This document shows positions 4,652 through 49,934 of a DNA stretch of 64,000 nt, piece by piece; positions within the stretch are counted from its first letter, which is position 1, and each line of letters opens with the position of its first letter. The notes below the pieces were generated by a model, which did no database searches, was not told the origin of the DNA, and saw nothing but the letters and a program-made list of their open reading frames with translations. Source of the stretch: Cocleimonas flava (GTDB lineage Bacteria; Pseudomonadota; Gammaproteobacteria; Thiotrichales; Thiotrichaceae); NCBI RefSeq assembly GCF_004339015.1, contig NZ_SMFQ01000005.1, forward strand, positions 682,001 to 746,000, written 5' to 3'. Both the position numbers and the translations under genes were made by a program.

Positions 4652-4681
4652 AGTCACCCCCCTACTTTGGGGCACTTTTTT
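4652..4681 (-). repeat. G-rich terminator-like repeat, copy 1
   Basis: Reverse-oriented copy (CACCCCCCTACTTTGGGG core followed by GCAC and six T). CCCC pairs with GGGG and the outer AGT pairs with ACT, giving a bulged hairpin plus T-tract immediately after aapP. It could act as an intrinsic terminator. Confidence 0.75.
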
Positions 4682-16137: not shown

Positions 16138-16172
16138 AAAAAAGTGCTTAGAAGTAGGGGGGTGTCTTAAAA
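16138..16172 (+). repeat. G-rich terminator-like repeat, copy 6
   Basis: Forward copy: six A, GTGCTTAGAAGTAGGGGGG, TGTCTT. It pairs with copy 5 across a 22-base spacer, making a long potential stem between two minus-strand genes. Confidence 0.65.
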
Positions 16173-41845: not shown

Positions 41846-41875
41846 AAAAAAGTGCCTATAAGTAGGGGGGTGTCA
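41846..41875 (+). repeat. G-rich terminator-like repeat, copy 18
   Basis: Forward copy: six A, GTGCCTATAAGTAGGGGGG, TGTCA. The 17 bases CTATAAGTAGGGGGGTG are the exact complement of part of copy 17, with a spacer of about 32 bases between the paired arms. Confidence 0.75.
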
Positions 41876-44271: not shown

Positions 44272-45291
44272 ATGCCAACGTATAATCCTTCTTTTATTAC
44301 GCAACAGTATCTACATACTGCCAATTCACCCTTTCTCGACAAAGTTGTATTCACCATCGACCATTTACACGAAGGTGGCCCTGGAATTTACAGCACCTTC
44401 GATGTTGTGAAACATTTAGTGAGTAAACAGATACCGGTTACTATTTTTATCCAATGTTCTGACCCGCTCAATTTTTGTCCTGCTGAAAAAAGAATTGCGC
44501 AAAGTATTTACGATCTTGATCATAATCTTGTGTCACTTGGCGCGCATGCGCTTACTCGGGGCAATAGTCAGGCGAATCAAAGTAATAATCTGGATAAGAT
44601 TAAAGATGTCATCGCGGATATCACCGGAGCTGAGCCCCAAATAATGTCTTATCATGGCAGTAATGCGGGTCCTGAAAATGGCATTAGTTATGCGGGCATA
44701 ACCTATGCAAGAGGTATTACAAGCGTTTGGTCTGATGCGTCAGCAGATAATCCGCTAAATACGCCGGTAATGAATATCAATTCTGTGAATGCCGCCTACG
44801 ATTTCATCCAGCAACGTAATGCTGCTAATTTATCTGCGACTTTATTTGTACATTCTGTGGAATTAACCAGTGGCTCCGTCAAAAAATTAACGTTTGATAC
44901 GATTGTGGCAGATGTAATTGGCCGAAGACTTCAAGCGATGTCTTATTTATCCGCAATGCAAACTGATTATACAGGGGCGCCCCCTACTCCCGGTCCTACG
45001 CAACCGATTGATCCTCCTCCAGGTACGCCTTGCCCATTAAGGCATTTTGCCAATAGTAAGATTACTCAATATTTACGAGTTAATAAGCGTGATGGTGTAA
45101 ACGGTGTTTTTCAGGTTGCAGAACTACAACGTTTTCTTAATGAATTAGGCTTGGGCGCTGGAACCGCAGACGGTATTTTTGGATCAAATACCAAACTTGC
45201 AGTGATAAGTTATCAGATTATAAAGGGACTAGGCCCTGATGGGATCGTTGGTGCAAATACTAGAGCATCGATTAATGCCTACTGCGATTAG
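44272..45291 (+). CDS. Divergent polysaccharide deacetylase-like protein with C-terminal peptidoglycan-binding domain
   Basis: A 339-residue two-domain protein. The N-terminal part (about 20-230) resembles a NodB fold: FTIDHLHEGG near residue 27 in place of TFDDG, LVSLGAHALTRG near 87 in place of the usual SHT, and IMSYHGSNAG near 125. The metal ligands are only partly recognisable, so catalysis is uncertain. A Pro-rich linker (about 237-260) leads to a PG_binding_1 domain (about 275-338: VAELQRFLNELGLG, DGIFGSNTKLAVISYQ). I see no signal peptide, which is odd for a wall-acting protein. Confidence 0.65.
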   Translation: MPTYNPSFITQQYLHTANSPFLDKVVFTIDHLHEGGPGIYSTFDVVKHLVSKQIPVTIFIQCSDPLNFCPAEKRIAQSIYDLDHNLVSLGAHALTRGNSQANQSNNLDKIKDVIADITGAEPQIMSYHGSNAGPENGISYAGITYARGITSVWSDASADNPLNTPVMNINSVNAAYDFIQQRNAANLSATLFVHSVELTSGSVKKLTFDTIVADVIGRRLQAMSYLSAMQTDYTGAPPTPGPTQPIDPPPGTPCPLRHFANSKITQYLRVNKRDGVNGVFQVAELQRFLNELGLGAGTADGIFGSNTKLAVISYQIIKGLGPDGIVGANTRASINAYCD

Positions 45292-45370
45292 ACTGCCGCG
45301 AGTCTATTACGACGAACTACTTTGATGGTTAAGAAAAGAGCCCGACTTCAGGTTTCACTTTTTTCAGGCC

Positions 45371-45404
45371 AAAAAAAACCGCGAAGCAACACAATGCCCC
45401 GCGG
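45371..45404 (-). terminator. Intrinsic terminator of the DUF1127 gene
   Basis: On the minus strand CCGCGGGGCA, loop TTGTGT, TGCTTCGCGG (10-bp stem with two G-U pairs), then eight T. The copy at 45871-45904 has the same loop and compensatory changes in the stem. Confidence 0.9.
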
Positions 45405-45405
45405 T

Positions 45406-45420
45406 CCAAGGAGGAGTCGG
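45406..45420 (-). ncRNA. CUCCUCC-loop hairpin, copy 1
   Basis: On the minus strand CCGA, CTCCTCC, TTGG: a 4-bp stem (one G-U) presenting a loop like the anti-Shine-Dalgarno end of 16S rRNA. It is 1 base upstream of the terminator and lies in the 3' UTR of the DUF1127 gene. It resembles the CUCCUCC loops of alphaproteobacterial CcsR/cuckoo RNAs, which also follow a DUF1127 gene. Confidence 0.65.
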
Positions 45421-45427
45421 TATTTAA

Positions 45428-45709
45428 TTATGCAGCTTTAGATGGGCTCGGCATAATTGGTGTTTGGTCTGCAGCTGTTTCTGTATCATTCGTTGCTGCT
45501 TTGAAATGTGAAACATTGTCAGGAATAATGTGTGACTGTGCTTCTTCACGCCATGGGTATCCGCTTGCACCTAGCTTTAAAAGCTCTCTTGAAACACCTA
45601 GATCTGCTAGTTGTCTGTCAGATAGCAATGATAATTCTTGTGCTGTGCGAGCATATCCAGATAACAGGAATGCTTCGTTTATATTTTTTAATACATTCTT
45701 GATATTCAT
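45428..45709 (-). CDS. DUF1127 domain-containing protein
   Basis: A 93-residue cytosolic protein. DUF1127 spans about residues 18-55, with LSLLSDRQLADLGVSRELL the hallmark. The tail (about 60-93) is Thr/Ala/Pro-rich and probably disordered. AGAGG lies 7 bases before the ATG. A promoter (TTGTGA, 17 bases, TAATAT) and a LysR-type dyad are upstream, and a CUCCUCC hairpin with terminator follows. Related DUF1127 proteins in Rhodobacter act with co-transcribed small RNAs; a similar role here is inference. The tandem neighbour at 45871-46132 is its degenerate duplicate. Confidence 0.88.
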   Translation of the reverse strand: MNIKNVLKNINEAFLLSGYARTAQELSLLSDRQLADLGVSRELLKLGASGYPWREEAQSHIIPDNVSHFKAATNDTETAADQTPIMPSPSKAA

Positions 45710-45775
45710 TTGTTATACCTCTTGGAGTATATTGCGTTTTTTAATAAGAAAGGCTTTTTGCCCTTCGACAATTGA

Positions 45776-45843
45776 ATATTAGAGTTTTACCATACTCTTC
45801 ACAAGAGACTTAAAATCAACTCAATGGTTAGTTTTTCTAACCA
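45776..45843 (-). promoter_or_regulatory. Promoter and LysR-type operator of the DUF1127 gene
   Basis: Minus-strand -10 TAATAT (45776-45781) and -35 TTGTGA (45799-45804) are 17 bases apart. Upstream, the perfect dyad TGGTTAG-N5-CTAACCA (45825-45843) contains T-N11-A and centres near -65, the classic LysR activation position. The same arrangement is repeated 289 bases away. Confidence 0.75.
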
Positions 45844-45870
45844 AAAACGTCATTTACATAAATTTTAGGC

Positions 45871-45904
45871 AAAAAAAACCGCGAAACAACACAATGTTTC
45901 ACGG
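45871..45904 (-). terminator. Intrinsic terminator, second copy
   Basis: Minus strand CCGTGAAACA, loop TTGTGT, TGTTTCGCGG, then eight T. Relative to copy 1, two G-U pairs became A-U and one G-C became A-U, so the stem is conserved by covariation. Confidence 0.9.
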
Positions 45905-46058
45905 TCCAAGGAGGAGATGGTAATAATCACGCAGTTTTAATAATTACTGCATAATTGAAATTTGTTTACTGAAATTGTGTTAATCTTCGAAAACTTGTTT
46001 TAGTCCTCATTAACACTTATCAGTGTAATCTTCCGAACAAGCTGTCTTGTCGTCCGAT
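45871..46058 (-). ncRNA. Putative small RNA from a degenerate duplicate of the DUF1127 unit
   Basis: Predicted transcript of about 185 nt from the promoter at 46065-46093 to a terminator at 45871-45904. It keeps the duplicate's promoter, operator, gene-end sequence (GCAG-TTTA-GCATAATT similarity), CUCCUCC hairpin (45906-45920) and terminator. The DUF1127 reading frame is gone: only a 14-codon ORF (45966-46010) without a ribosome site remains. Selective retention of the RNA parts suggests a functional sRNA. A simple decaying duplicate is the alternative. Confidence 0.55.
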
Positions 46059-46064
46059 GAGTGA

Positions 46065-46132
46065 ATATTAGAGTTCTCTGAGTTTGTTCACAAGCGACTA
46101 AAAATCAACCCACTGGTTAGTTTTGATAACCA
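46065..46132 (-). promoter_or_regulatory. Promoter and LysR-type operator, second copy
   Basis: TAATAT (46065-46070), 17 bases, TTGTGA (46088-46093), with the dyad TGGTTA-N7-TAACCA at 46114-46132 (T-N11-A) also centred near -65. Nearly all sequence between these elements has drifted, but their positions are identical to copy 1. Confidence 0.7.
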
Positions 46133-46299
46133 ATGATGATTTATGGTGATGAGGGATATGTCTGTAGCCGCCGTTGTAGCGGTCTTTTCTTCTGGTGGTT
46201 ATTATTTTTATCGTTTGTTTATTGCGTTGATATTAAGCACTACTGGGAGGAGATTTATATTGATTTACCCAGATTTAGGTTTGTTTAGGTTTGTTCAGC

Positions 46300-47250
46300 T
46301 TAGTTATCTTGGTCCAGCTTTGCTTCTTCAAGTATCCATTCGATAAAAGCATCAACCGCATGACGGTTAGAATCCATCGATTCTGGTCGAATGACATAAT
46401 ACGAGCGTTCTAACGGGAGACTTAAATCAAAAGGCTGACACAGTCTGCCTGCTTCGATATCGCTTCTAGCCAGCATCTCAATGCCCATTAACACACCTTG
46501 TCCGTCAATGGCGGCATCCATCGCTAGCGATACATGATTAAAACGTAAGCCACGATCTACCTTAACTCCTGTGACACCGGCATGTTTTAACCAGGGTTTC
46601 CATTCTGGTCGACCTTTATAGTCAGTATTATCGTGAAGCAAGGTATGAAACTTAAGATCTTCTGGTGTTTTCAGTGGCTTATCAGGATTATTGAGTAAAT
46701 CTGGGCTACACATGGGTATAGCTTTCACCGAGAATAACTTATCAACGGCACAACCGGGATAATTTCCAGAACCAAAGCGTATCGCCACATCAACATTATT
46801 CGCGCGAAAGATCTCTTCCATTGAGACATTGCCATCTTCGGCGTCAACCAATCCGGTTGTGCCACTGATCTGCATATCGATCTCTGGATATTTTAACGAG
46901 AAGCTGTGCAAGCGCGGCACTAACCACTTTGATGCAAATGAGGGTGCCATCCAGACAGTAAGGTTTTCATTAGTCTGGTGAGAGCTCATCAAATGCACTG
47001 CATCCGATAGATTATTAAAACCTTCGCGTAGCTTTGGCAAAGCTGCTTCAGCCGCTGGGGTTAAAGCGATAGAACGCGTTTGACGATGAATTAACTGGAA
47101 CCCCAGATAATCTTCAAGGTTTTTTATTTGATGACTTACCGCAGCTCTGGTGACGTATAACTCGTTGGCTGCCTTAGTGAAACTCTTAAGTCGTGCGACT
47201 GCTTCAAAAGTTCTTAAAGCAGTTAAAGGTGGGAGGTGCGATGTCGGCAT
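46300..47250 (-). CDS. GcvA-like LysR-family transcriptional regulator
   Basis: A 316-residue regulator. Winged HTH at the N-terminus: PPLTALRTFEAVARLKSFTKAANELYVTRAAVSHQIKNLEDYLG (about 7-50), typical of the GcvA branch. The PBP2_GcdR_like domain follows (about 95-300). It lies immediately upstream, on the same strand, of the two tandem DUF1127-type units, whose promoters carry LysR T-N11-A dyads. It is the natural candidate to control them, though that is inferred from proximity and site type. Confidence 0.88.
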   Translation of the reverse strand: MPTSHLPPLTALRTFEAVARLKSFTKAANELYVTRAAVSHQIKNLEDYLGFQLIHRQTRSIALTPAAEAALPKLREGFNNLSDAVHLMSSHQTNENLTVWMAPSFASKWLVPRLHSFSLKYPEIDMQISGTTGLVDAEDGNVSMEEIFRANNVDVAIRFGSGNYPGCAVDKLFSVKAIPMCSPDLLNNPDKPLKTPEDLKFHTLLHDNTDYKGRPEWKPWLKHAGVTGVKVDRGLRFNHVSLAMDAAIDGQGVLMGIEMLARSDIEAGRLCQPFDLSLPLERSYYVIRPESMDSNRHAVDAFIEWILEEAKLDQDN

Positions 47251-47286: not shown

Positions 47287-47315
47287 GACACCCCCCCACT
47301 TTCAACCACTTTTTA
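47287..47315 (-). repeat. G-rich terminator-like repeat, copy 20
   Basis: Reverse copy: GGACACCCCCCCACTTTCAA, CCACTTTTTAT, in the short gap after the GST gene. Confidence 0.65.
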
Positions 47316-48248: not shown

Positions 48249-49934
48249 CTACAGAACCTTACGATATGCATCAACTAATGACTCATGCATTTCCCAGTCA
48301 CTTTCTAAGGGAAAGATATCTTCACCATCAATCAATGCCAATGCATCATTTAATACGCTTTTGCTGTAAAGCTTAGCCAATGAATTTGAATAATTAACCA
48401 TGCCATCTAGTTGCAATAAAGTGTCGATACACTGGTAGACCTTTAAGCGCGCGGGGTTAATCTGTTTGTAATGCAACAGCCACTCACAGCCTTCTTGAAT
48501 GCGTTCGTTGTCCTGACATTTAAGTGCCAGCAAGGTGATTAATTCGGTTACGCACAAATCTGCGAAAATACTATCAGCATCTGCAGGGTAGCCAATGAGA
48601 GTGGCTACGAGATATTGGTCTTCCAGATTTAAATCTTCAATCGCTTCAATCAATGCTTCGCATTCTGCCACTGTTTTGTGCTTTTTCAAGATGGCTTTTC
48701 GAATATCAATTCCTGCATTATTATTTTCCCAAACTAGGTTTTCTCTGGGGTAAACCTCTGACATACCAGGCACCAGAATTCGACAGCAAGGCACTCCCAG
48801 CTCTTGATAATCTGCGACATAGATATCGTTACCTTGCTGATGAATCAGGTCGCAGATATCTTCGAATGTTTTGTCAGCGGTTTGATCGTTACCCCAATCC
48901 ACAAATTCATAATCTGCTTTATTCTGCAAAAACTGCCAACTCATCATGCCACTCGCATCGGTAAAGTGCGCTTCAAGGTTTTGGGGGCTAGCGACTTCAT
49001 CCAGATCGAAACCGGCTTCGGTAAAGTTCTTTAATTTATCCAGTTCCCGATTTTTCAATAATTGCAATATTGCCTGCTCTAGCGCACGCCCAAACTGTGG
49101 ATGTGCGCCAAAACTTGCGCAAACACCCTGATTTTCAGGGTTTAGCAAAGTGAGGGCGACAACGGGATATTTTCCTCCTAACGATGCATCTTGAATCAAA
49201 AGAGAAAAACCTGCGTGTTCTATCTCTTTGATACTTGTTTGGATATTCGGGTATCTGTCGAGCACACTGCCAGGAATATCGGGCAGTGAGACTCCTTCAG
49301 CGACCACTTTAAATTTCACAAAATTTTCGAGAATTTTAGTTAACGCTTGAATTCTCGCTTCAGCAAGCGAATCTCCTACTGACATGCCATTGCTGGCATA
49401 GAGATTGTCGATAATATTAATCGGAAAGTAGATCGACTCTTGCGTTTTCTCACACACAAAAGGCAGGCAACAGATTCCTCTATTGCGATTAGCTGAATTA
49501 GCATCAATCAGTTTATTCGCATCTAACTCACCATTAGCATTGTAAAAGTCTTGCAGTTCTTCATTCAAGACGCCCTCTGGCCACGATCCACTGGTGTTCG
49601 TTTCGAACCAGCGTTCATTTTTATAATGTACGTGTTTGCTATTAGAGATTTCATCCCCAAGATAGTAATCTGCCCAAAAGTAATGTGTAGAAAGTCGTCC
49701 GAAGAATTCCTTCAAGGCACTGGCTAAAGCCGCTTGTTTCGATACGCCCTTTCCATTGCTAACCAACAACGGACAGTCTTGGTCTTTAATGTTTACTGAC
49801 CAGACATTAGTAATAGGGTTTGACCAGGATTGCTGCTGAATATGAAAATCCATTGCTGCCAATTTTTTTTGCATAAAGACAATAGAATCTTCTAGTGCGG
49901 CGTCTTTATTTAAAACATGAGTTTGGGAAGGCAT
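48249..49934 (-). CDS. ycaO: YcaO-domain protein, RimO-accessory type, with substituted ATP-site residues
   Basis: A 561-residue protein aligning end to end with E. coli YcaO, reported to assist RimO in ribosomal S12 methylthiolation. The YcaO domain spans about 1-400 and a TPR-like helical tail about 430-561. Family pieces include NKDAALEDS, WSNPITNVWSV, SNGKGVSKQAALASAL, RGICCLPF and ASFGAHPQFGRALEQ. From my memory of the E. coli protein, Mg/ATP ligands E78, N187 and E199 correspond here to Gly79, Asp188 and Lys200, while E75, E191 and E202 are kept (76, 192, 203). ATP use may be impaired. It is not a RiPP cyclodehydratase by type. Confidence 0.87.
   Translation of the reverse strand: MPSQTHVLNKDAALEDSIVFMQKKLAAMDFHIQQQSWSNPITNVWSVNIKDQDCPLLVSNGKGVSKQAALASALKEFFGRLSTHYFWADYYLGDEISNSKHVHYKNERWFETNTSGSWPEGVLNEELQDFYNANGELDANKLIDANSANRNRGICCLPFVCEKTQESIYFPINIIDNLYASNGMSVGDSLAEARIQALTKILENFVKFKVVAEGVSLPDIPGSVLDRYPNIQTSIKEIEHAGFSLLIQDASLGGKYPVVALTLLNPENQGVCASFGAHPQFGRALEQAILQLLKNRELDKLKNFTEAGFDLDEVASPQNLEAHFTDASGMMSWQFLQNKADYEFVDWGNDQTADKTFEDICDLIHQQGNDIYVADYQELGVPCCRILVPGMSEVYPRENLVWENNNAGIDIRKAILKKHKTVAECEALIEAIEDLNLEDQYLVATLIGYPADADSIFADLCVTELITLLALKCQDNERIQEGCEWLLHYKQINPARLKVYQCIDTLLQLDGMVNYSNSLAKLYSKSVLNDALALIDGEDIFPLESDWEMHESLVDAYRKVL

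Follow-up and report, generated by a model that had tools for sequence, protein, structure and literature searches.

The Locus and Its Two Units

The window analyzed here is a stretch of 64,000 nucleotides (nt) from the genome of Cocleimonas flava (class Gammaproteobacteria, family Thiotrichaceae; contig NZ_SMFQ01000005.1, positions 682,001 to 746,000). Its minus strand contains, in this order, a glutathione-S-transferase-like gene, a gene for a LysR-type transcriptional regulator (LTTR; 46300-47250), and two tandem units, here called unit 2 and unit 1. These units are candidates for the production of an anti-Shine-Dalgarno (anti-SD) small RNA (sRNA). They have in common a promoter repeat of 87 nt (77% identical) and an end repeat of 53 nt (87% identical). 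A preliminary description of this DNA, made from the sequence alone, reported two adjacent units with a common dyad, promoter, CUCCUCC motif, and terminator, and all of these parts were found (Table 1). It also reported a DUF1127 protein encoded by unit 1, which does score above the gathering threshold of PF06568. No minus-strand open reading frame (ORF) of at least 30 amino acids, the minimum of the ORF listing, is present in unit 2.

Table 1. Predicted features of the lysR locus, in window positions.
Feature	Position	Strand	Remarks
Unit 2 operator, dyad TGGTTAT-N5-CTAACCA	46114-46132	-	Center about -65 from inferred start; core and spacing kept in relatives
Unit 2 conserved element GTTGATTTTTAGTCGCTTGTGA, between dyad and -35	46088-46109	-	
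Unit 2 core promoter TTGTGA-N17-TAATAT	46065-46093	-	
Predicted unit 2 sRNA, about 188 nt	45871-46058	-	Start inferred from -10 box, end from terminator
Unit 2 stretch of 60 nt like the 3' end of a DUF1127 gene (ORF remnant or shared tail)	45917-45976	-	
Unit 2 anti-SD motif CUCCUCCUUGG	45906-45916	-	Mean probability of being unpaired 0.57 in predicted RNA
Unit 2 intrinsic terminator, loop UUGUGU	45871-45905	-	Terminator scan
Unit 1 operator, dyad TGGTTAG-N5-CTAACCA	45825-45843	-	
Unit 1 conserved element GTTGATTTTAAGTCTCTTGTGA	45799-45820	-	
Unit 1 core promoter TTGTGA-N17-TAATAT	45776-45804	-	
Unit 1 DUF1127 protein, 93 amino acids	45428-45709	-	PF06568, 4.8e-8, 33.1 bits against a cut-off of 23.3
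Unit 1 anti-SD motif CUCCUCCUUGG in the 3' untranslated region (UTR)	45406-45416	-	
Unit 1 intrinsic terminator, loop UUGUGU	45371-45405	-	Terminator scan
GcvA-like LTTR, 316 amino acids, presumed activator of both units	46300-47250	-	PF00126, 1.9e-22; PF03466, 1.2e-28

The motif CTCCTCCTTGG is present in both units (45406-45416 and 45906-45916). The 15-mer CTCCTCCTTGGACCG occurs exactly only at units 1 and 2 in the 4.49-Mb genome, and no further match appears at up to two mismatches. The weight of this result lies in the exactness of both copies, because a reversed control also gives two matches at that tolerance. The pattern GTTA-N7-TAAC-N21-CTTGT is likewise exact only at the two units in this genome. 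With one mismatch there are eight more sites against 18 for the reversed control, which is the chance level. On contig C2, the promoter of a DUF1127 paralog is related to these, but the gene lacks the CUCCUCC terminator.

The terminator stems were measured at 11 bp (13 bp with a G·U extension) instead of the 10 bp previously given. Their differences between the units (GGGGCA/UGCUUC against GAAACA/UGUUUC) were described as compensatory. One of these is a double change, G·C to A·U, and the other two are one-sided, G·U to A·U. Each stem version is identical in G000, the genome of the window, and in the Cocleimonas genome G007, so the double change counts once. A small 3-bp hairpin around CUCCUCC, CC(G/A)...UGG with a G-U to A-U change, found no support in folding or in G007. 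Pieces of 18 nt fold into another weak hairpin (-2.3 kcal/mol), and unit 1 of G007 has UGAG at this place. The Cocleimonas units contain a single CUCCUCC motif without a supported surrounding hairpin.

No relevant Rfam match was obtained in the window at gathering scores, and the RNA matches no Rfam family. Five matches below the cut-offs, including one to mmgR (15.2 bits, cut-off 41) that covers the end of unit 1, were judged to be due to chance, as was a match to SpF11 in locus L049 (E value 0.15, below the cut-off). A search of a plasmid collection gave no match.

The LysR Regulator

The closest solved structure to the LysR protein is the glycine cleavage system transcriptional activator, GcvA (8y6u, 4.4e-72), and the next match is at 3.9e-16. 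The protein is 91% identical to a LysR on a contig of an uncultured Cocleimonas sp. In a tree built with FastTree and rooted at the midpoint, the LysRs of the Thiotrichaceae form a clade among gammaproteobacterial genes. GcvA of E. coli lies outside this clade and groups with locus L122.

LsrB/VtlR regulators of Alphaproteobacteria were also considered. Their genes are reported to lie near trxB (PMC12595884, PMC7486931). By synteny, the LysRs of trxB loci in Hyphomicrobiales are LsrB/VtlR. These trxB-linked LysRs, found in 23 of 28 trxB loci, are 26-33% identical to the regulator studied here and form a separate clade with a support of 1.0, which rules out that the latter is LsrB/VtlR.

Conservation in Cocleimonas and Related Genera

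The comparison set contained 63 genomes of the family in the genera g1 (Cocleimonas) to g8, of which g2 is presumably Thiothrix. G007 has the same order of lysR, ORF-less unit, and DUF1127 unit, and it is identical to locus L023 over the stretch read. Its DUF1127 protein at the matching place is 69% identical. Between G000 and G007, identical columns number 56 of 168 in the spacer from lysR to the dyad, 12 of 19 in the dyad, and 49 of 60 in the promoter. Within the RNA, they number 37 of 43 in the 5' part, 22 of 40 in the middle, 34 of 45 in the next part, and 66 of 71 in CUCCUCC and the terminator. In both G003 and G008, whose LysRs are 72% identical, lysR is followed by a single ORF-less unit that has CTCCTCC and the dyad, the latter with the half-site CTCACC. 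A profile search of the LysR loci of G003 and G008 found no DUF1127 match. The genomes that bear units are four of the 12 in Cocleimonas, and the other eight have no LysR match below 1e-100.

A LysR match with an E value of 1e-40 or better was found in 37 of the 63 genomes, and in 35 it was below 1e-100. A total of 30 fetched LysR loci and some further regions were surveyed for units. ORF-less CUCCUCC units 3' of lysR were identified in G000, G007, G003, G008, G020 (g3), and 12 g2 genomes. Because lysR with an ORF-less unit recurs in Cocleimonas, g3, and g2, the unit is more than a local duplication.

The g2 RNAs, with a predicted length of about 130-155 nt, fold into two hairpins with CUCCUCC repeats in each loop, and the second hairpin is the terminator. 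RNAalifold identified 19 pairs in a MAFFT alignment of 12 g2 RNAs, and 14 of these pairs have double changes. In an alignment fitted to the model, 97.2% of cells are paired, and slid versions reach no more than 49.3%; this count leans towards structure because the alignment was fitted to it.

A covariance model built from the 12 g2 RNAs, R1, was run over the 63 genomes. It matched 20 of them at an E value of 0.1: 15 in g2, G069 to G072 in g5, and G066 in g7, which was judged false. One full-length match each is present in 15 of the 16 g2 genomes (E values 1.5e-23 to 1.5e-38). Three of these, G080 to G082, were outside the training set of R1 (1.6e-34 to 4.1e-33). Their RNAs are far from lysR, with no unit within 420-500 nt 3' of that gene, and the dyad promoter is kept. 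The sole g2 genome without the RNA, G074, is also the sole one without a LysR match. In g5, the E values are 3.9e-6 to 5.6e-5 for G070, G071, and G072 and 0.025 for G069. The G069 locus (L194, G069:C55, 1190-2540) contains two tandem CUCCUCC RNAs with CTTGCTGCA-N2-GCAGCAAAA near -35. About 650 nt past them is a DUF1127 gene whose stop codon is followed, after 23 nt, by CTCCTCC, and lysR is on another contig. This locus is a second tandem arrangement, in another genus.

A further model, R2, added G015 (g5), whose RNA has the same form as in g2. R2 was also run over 369 genomes of the class and gave two matches, G015 and G289 (L235, E value 0.0035 per genome). The latter was judged false, as no dyad was seen there. 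Nothing convincing was found outside the family, and weak RNA copies may be missed because the broad R1 and R2 searches used strict filters and limited candidates per genome. Two R1 matches, L193 (G066, E value 0.0084) and L195 (a second, partial match in G012, E value 0.021), were judged false and are without CUCCUCC hairpins.

In 18 g2 and g5 RNAs, CUCCUCC is predicted to be unpaired with a mean probability of 0.80-1.0; this list omits the g5 RNAs of G070 and G069. The corresponding values are 0.57 and 0.65 for the unit 2 RNAs of G000 and G007, and 0.42, 0.48, and 0.85 for the other ORF-less units in G008, G020, and G003.

Operator and Promoter Geometry

The T-N11-A dyads previously described, centered near -65 and slightly diverged in the second copy, were both found. 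Published GcvA sites are given as ATTAG-N5-CTAAT, with IR1 and IR2 centered at -65 and -43 from the gcvB start (PMC5002191; PMC3658693). E. coli gcvB has TTAGTTTTTTTAA-N22-GTTGAG, with a spacing equal to that of the units; in its loose form, this pattern is present two times in the 8-kb region around it. The core of the dyad, its position, and its distance to the -35 element match gcvB and the published operator, so the units resemble promoters activated by a regulator of the GcvA type. With a sequence closest to GcvA and a GcvA-type operator near -65 of the adjacent predicted sRNA promoter, the regulator appears to belong to the GcvA family. The control by a GcvA-like LysR that was suggested earlier is supported by the sequence. 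An LsrB/VtlR-type operator (GCAT-N3-TG-N3-T or TGCA-N6-GCAT) was not found in the units, which have GGTTA(G/T)-N5-CTAACC at this place.

The dyad lies 22 nt before CTTG in 24 of the 26 RNA units found, including RNAs that are far from lysR. T[TA]A-N7-T[AC]A-N22-CTTG is present upstream of 24 distinct CTCCTCC units, 15 in g2 and the others in G000, G007, G003, G008, G020, G070, G071, G072, and G015. The stricter TTA-N7-TAA-N22-CTTGT has 26 distinct sites in the fetched loci, and CTCCTCC follows within 300 nt in 19. Spacings of 16, 18, 20, 21, 23, 24, 26, and 28 nt have 1, 2, 1, 0, 0, 3, 0, and 0 sites, none with CTCCTCC. The site total is enriched, since the loci were fetched for LysR, DUF1127, or the RNA, and close relatives are counted apart. 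This selection does not account for the preference for a single spacing. The same distance is found in the promoters of 12 of 50 DUF1127 ORFs of the family, both starting loci included, and no other spacing between 5 and 44 nt has the dyad in more than two.

The g5 dyads read TTAGTTTTTCTAA in G071 and TTATATTTCCTAA in G070 and G072, all 22 nt from CTTG. G015 has GGTTAGAATAAATAACC at the same distance to CTTGTG. The RNAs of G080 to G082 begin with GGTTAGTTTT(T/C)CTAACC...TAGCTTGT.

Two further elements were seen in these regions. A palindrome-like element, TTGnTGC-N2-4-GCA, which resembles the TGCA/GCAT LsrB sites of Alphaproteobacteria, is present upstream of 13 of 50 DUF1127 ORFs and also where the g2 RNAs start. 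The g2 stretch TTGCTGCATTGCAATA, located near the RNA start and not at -65, has CAATGCAGC (other strand) in common with the Brucella VtlR box CAATGCAGCCATGCA.

DUF1127 Genes and the Origin of Unit 2

The 50 DUF1127 ORFs, a subset of all DUF1127 matches, were identified in 50 fetched loci by means of a profile made from 29 such sequences. CTCCTCC is located at most 62 nt past the stop codon in six of them (G000, G007, G014, G071, G069, and G032). The background is 1.5% of random 250-nt windows. Three of the six are not independent: the analysis started from L002 and L008, and L194 entered the set through its match to the RNA model. When these three are set aside, the count is 3 of 47. The association of CUCCUCC with DUF1127 genes is real in Cocleimonas and suggestive in the rest of the family. 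Conservation next to DUF1127 genes in related genomes was earlier named as a test of the prediction. The unit is indeed kept beside lysR and in related genera, and its CUCCUCC motif is found next to DUF1127 genes only occasionally. The DUF1127 gene is not necessary for the RNA to exist, because 13 of 16 g2 genomes have no DUF1127 match, while 15 have the RNA.

A DUF1127 ORF is located beside LysR in seven of the 11 loci L114 to L124 (L114 to L119 and L123), in three of 30 alphaproteobacterial loci (L147, L149, and L151), and in none of L024 to L045. This suggests that DUF1127 is a common target of the GcvA-like LTTR branch. In L115, which is G014 (g4), the DUF1127 gene with CTCCTCC after its stop codon is convergent with lysR. 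The pairs of L114, L116 to L119, and L123, from other gammaproteobacterial families, and of L147, L149, and L151 are divergent where examined.

The preliminary description held that the reading frame of unit 2 is gone and that the RNA parts persist. The frame is absent as noted above, and a tail of 60 nt resembles a DUF1127 gene. When the 60 nt before CTCCTCC were compared with the DUF1127 gene end in an end-anchored, global alignment, none of 1000 shuffles reached the score in G000 or G007; the length of 60 nt was the author's choice. Aligned locally with the ORF, unit 2 gives a weak result: shuffles reached the score in 19 of 500 cases for G000, 272 of 500 for G007, and 215 of 500 between species. 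That the sRNA arose solely through decay of the ORF was not upheld and is not claimed, because ORF-less units are also present in G003, G008, G020, and g2. Gene conversion between the tandem units, or a DUF1127 gene that captured the end of an sRNA, would fit as well.

It could also be that promoter and terminator alone are selected. CUCCUCC would then be a by-product of the terminator module that both units share, and unit 2 would be a DUF1127 gene in decay whose RNA has no function. The DUF1127-like stretch agrees with this, as do the well-kept end module and promoter beside a poorly kept middle. CTCCTCC by itself is also not rare in the window (five copies against 3.0 expected). However, ORF-less units adjoin lysR in three genera, conservation within unit 2 extends to the 5' region of the RNA, and the g2 and g5 RNAs place CUCCUCC in the loops of two covarying hairpins. 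Decay without RNA function is unlikely.

Comparison with Known Systems

The arrangement is similar to GcvA-gcvB of enterobacteria in several respects. Both combine a GcvA-like LTTR with an adjacent sRNA gene, a core of TTAG-N5-CTAA, and an operator centered at -65, with the dyad 22 nt before CTTG or GTTG at the -35 position. In contrast, gcvB is divergent from gcvA, and the RNA here follows the 3' end of lysR in the same orientation and carries CUCCUCC motifs. Rfam has a GcvB family. The RNA does not match it, as nothing in the window reaches the gathering score of an Rfam family.

Other parts have counterparts in Alphaproteobacteria. VtlR is reported to activate AbcR sRNAs and genes for DUF1127 or small proteins (PMC12595884, PMC7486931), and AbcR1 and AbcR2 lie in tandem beside lsrB (PMC8844928). 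LsrB activates NfeR1, an alpha-r14 RNA with three CCUCCUCCC hairpins, and the LTTR site of its promoter is at -72 to -57 (PMC10746234). Another report describes the SmelA075 and SmelA099 families, with three and four such hairpins and variable stems (PMC3927594). The likeness to LsrB/VtlR-NfeR1/AbcR consists of an LTTR, anti-SD sRNAs, DUF1127 genes, and repeated hairpins with C-rich loops and variable stems. RNAs of the alpha-r14, NfeR1, CcsR, and cuckoo type have several hairpins with variable stems, and the loop of each is an unpaired CCUCCUCCC-type sequence. The g2 and g5 RNAs have two covarying hairpins with CUCCUCC loops, and the Cocleimonas units have the single motif described above. 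The differences are a non-orthologous regulator, a different operator, an occurrence in Gammaproteobacteria, and loops of CUCCUCC(UCC)n instead of CCUCCUCCC.

In the CIN1 locus of Rhodobacter, the cuckoo RNAs CcsR1-4 follow the DUF1127 gene ccaF1 in one transcript from an RpoHI/RpoHII promoter, and CcaF1 is reported to bind RNA (PMC10253847). Unit 1 appears to have the same anatomy of a DUF1127 gene, CUCCUCC, and one terminator. It differs in having one motif instead of four RNAs, an extra free-standing unit beside it, and a core promoter that in both units is paired with a LysR-type dyad. CcsR was named in the preliminary description as the parallel. The LTTR-driven NfeR1 and AbcR are closer, since CcsR is an RpoH-driven co-transcript. 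The suggestion that the locus is a gammaproteobacterial counterpart of the DUF1127 and CCUCCUCCC-RNA system is supported in its list of parts. The likeness is one of parts and logic, and the regulator is a different LTTR. No report of a LysR-controlled anti-SD sRNA of this kind was found for Gammaproteobacteria in the open-licence papers that searches aimed at it could reach.

Alphaproteobacterial loci were also searched. R2 gave two weak matches in 46 of them (E values 0.2 and 0.28, not significant), just 3' of trxB-linked LysR genes. Among 18 alphaproteobacterial DUF1127 loci, CCTCCTCC is present in four. In L138 (Roseivivax) it has 15 copies, located downstream of the DUF1127 gene, an arrangement also known from CcsR loci. 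This array in Roseivivax marinus (1789-2554) is unusually long for a CcsR-like array.

Proposed Function

The GcvA-like LysR would bind the GcvA-type operator (TTA-N7-TAA, about -65) in front of both units and aid RNA polymerase at -35. Both units would then answer one signal, which by analogy only could be glycine or redox. The product of unit 2 would be a noncoding transcript of about 190 nt, and that of unit 1 a DUF1127 mRNA with a 3' UTR that ends in the same module of CUCCUCC and terminator, from which a similar RNA could be released. CUCCUCC may pair with the GGAGG-type Shine-Dalgarno sequences of several mRNAs and lower their translation, an effect that NfeR1 and AbcR are reported to have. 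The protein encoded by unit 1 may modulate the RNA or act in parallel.

Taken as a whole, this reading of a LysR-activated anti-SD sRNA and a DUF1127 mRNA with the same 3' end is probable. That the unit is real, conserved, controlled by a LysR-type regulator, and makes an sRNA appears very likely. The RNA itself is likely an anti-SD regulator. The order of the genes, an operator-like dyad at a constant spacing, the conservation, the hairpin covariation in relatives, and the absence of an ORF of at least 30 amino acids are seen in the sequence itself, and transcription, LysR binding, mRNA targets and pairing, a role of DUF1127, and an inducing signal are inferences. The sequence CCUCCUU is also the 3' tail of 16S rRNA, so a decoy action is possible. 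Between pairing with mRNA and mimicry of the 16S tail, pairing has the better precedent.

Several observations weigh against this reading. CTCCTCC is found in the 3' UTR of just six of the 50 DUF1127 ORFs of the family, and the dyad itself matches in just 12 columns between G000 and G007. The predicted accessibility of CUCCUCC is moderate in the units of G000, G007, G008, and G020. Both RNA units of G069 are without a dyad at the 22-nt spacing. No unit is present within 420-500 nt 3' of the gene in 13 fetched LysR orthologs of g5 and g7 or in G033 (g7). R1 found no convincing RNA in g7, though six g7 genomes have the LysR, and the fitting to structure noted above applies to its pairing count. 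Run with its filters off on the window, L047, L049, L050, L081, and L082, R1 also gave no significant match at the Cocleimonas units. A match of 12.3 bits (E value 0.17) overlaps the end of the G020 unit. Unit 2 is therefore linked to the two-hairpin RNA by promoter, place, and CUCCUCC, and not by demonstrated RNA homology.

Instead of specific mRNAs, the CUCCUCC loops could bind and sequester a protein, such as the DUF1127 protein, Rho, or a binder of C-rich RNA, or initiating ribosomes. The g2 loops are repeated, very rich in C and U, and variable in length, and the RNA binding of CcaF1 described above would agree with this. However, most g2 genomes have the RNA without a DUF1127 match, and pairing is the published mode of action of alphaproteobacterial RNAs of such form (PMC10746234, PMC8844928). 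Pulldowns of Salmonella YjiS are reported to have given no evidence of RNA binding. Titration seems improbable. True membership in the LsrB/VtlR-AbcR/NfeR1 system, which the same three parts and the position of the two weak R2 matches might suggest, is very improbable, as it is contradicted by the separate clade of the regulator and by an operator that is GcvA-type and not TGCA-N6-GCAT.

If the sRNA reading is correct, the locus is of wider interest. Descriptions of the coupling of DUF1127 with CUCCUCC RNAs have so far come from Alphaproteobacteria, and the logic behind it is unclear. A gammaproteobacterial case with a different regulator and a GcvA-type operator can serve as a comparative handle. 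The constant parts (LTTR promoter, anti-SD RNA, and DUF1127) likely matter, and the changing parts (regulator and number of hairpins) are not essential. For Cocleimonas and its relatives, the RNA is a candidate post-transcriptional regulator. A more tentative and rather doubtful idea concerns the age of the module. An LTTR, an anti-SD hairpin RNA, and a DUF1127 protein may have been combined before Alpha- and Gammaproteobacteria diverged. Alternatively, the combination may have evolved several times with different LTTRs (GcvA-like in this locus and LsrB/VtlR in Alphaproteobacteria), a recurrence that would be explained if DUF1127 proteins act on RNA of this type. Unit 1 would then be a dual gene, with an mRNA that encodes the RNA-binding partner and an sRNA in its 3' UTR.

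Other Features of the Window

A convergent gene on the plus strand (44272-45291) adjoins the units and encodes a peptidoglycan-binding domain (PF01471). Similar DNA adjoins the units in G007. On the minus strand near the locus, a YcaO protein with a YcaO_C domain is encoded (48249-49934).

The sequence AAGT(A/G)GGGGGG is strongly over-represented in the window. It has 17 exact copies, such as those at 4657-4667 (minus strand), 16152-16162 (plus), and 41860-41870 (plus), and one copy is located in front of lysR (47291-47301, minus). For AAGTNGGGGGG, 28 matches were found at up to one mismatch against 1.8 expected, a count reached by none of 100 shuffles. A typical context is AAAAAGTGCCTATAAGTAGGGGGGTGGCTTTT, and the other strand could form a GCC...GGC terminator-like hairpin with a C-rich loop. 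This sequence is perhaps a genome-wide family of terminators or repeats.

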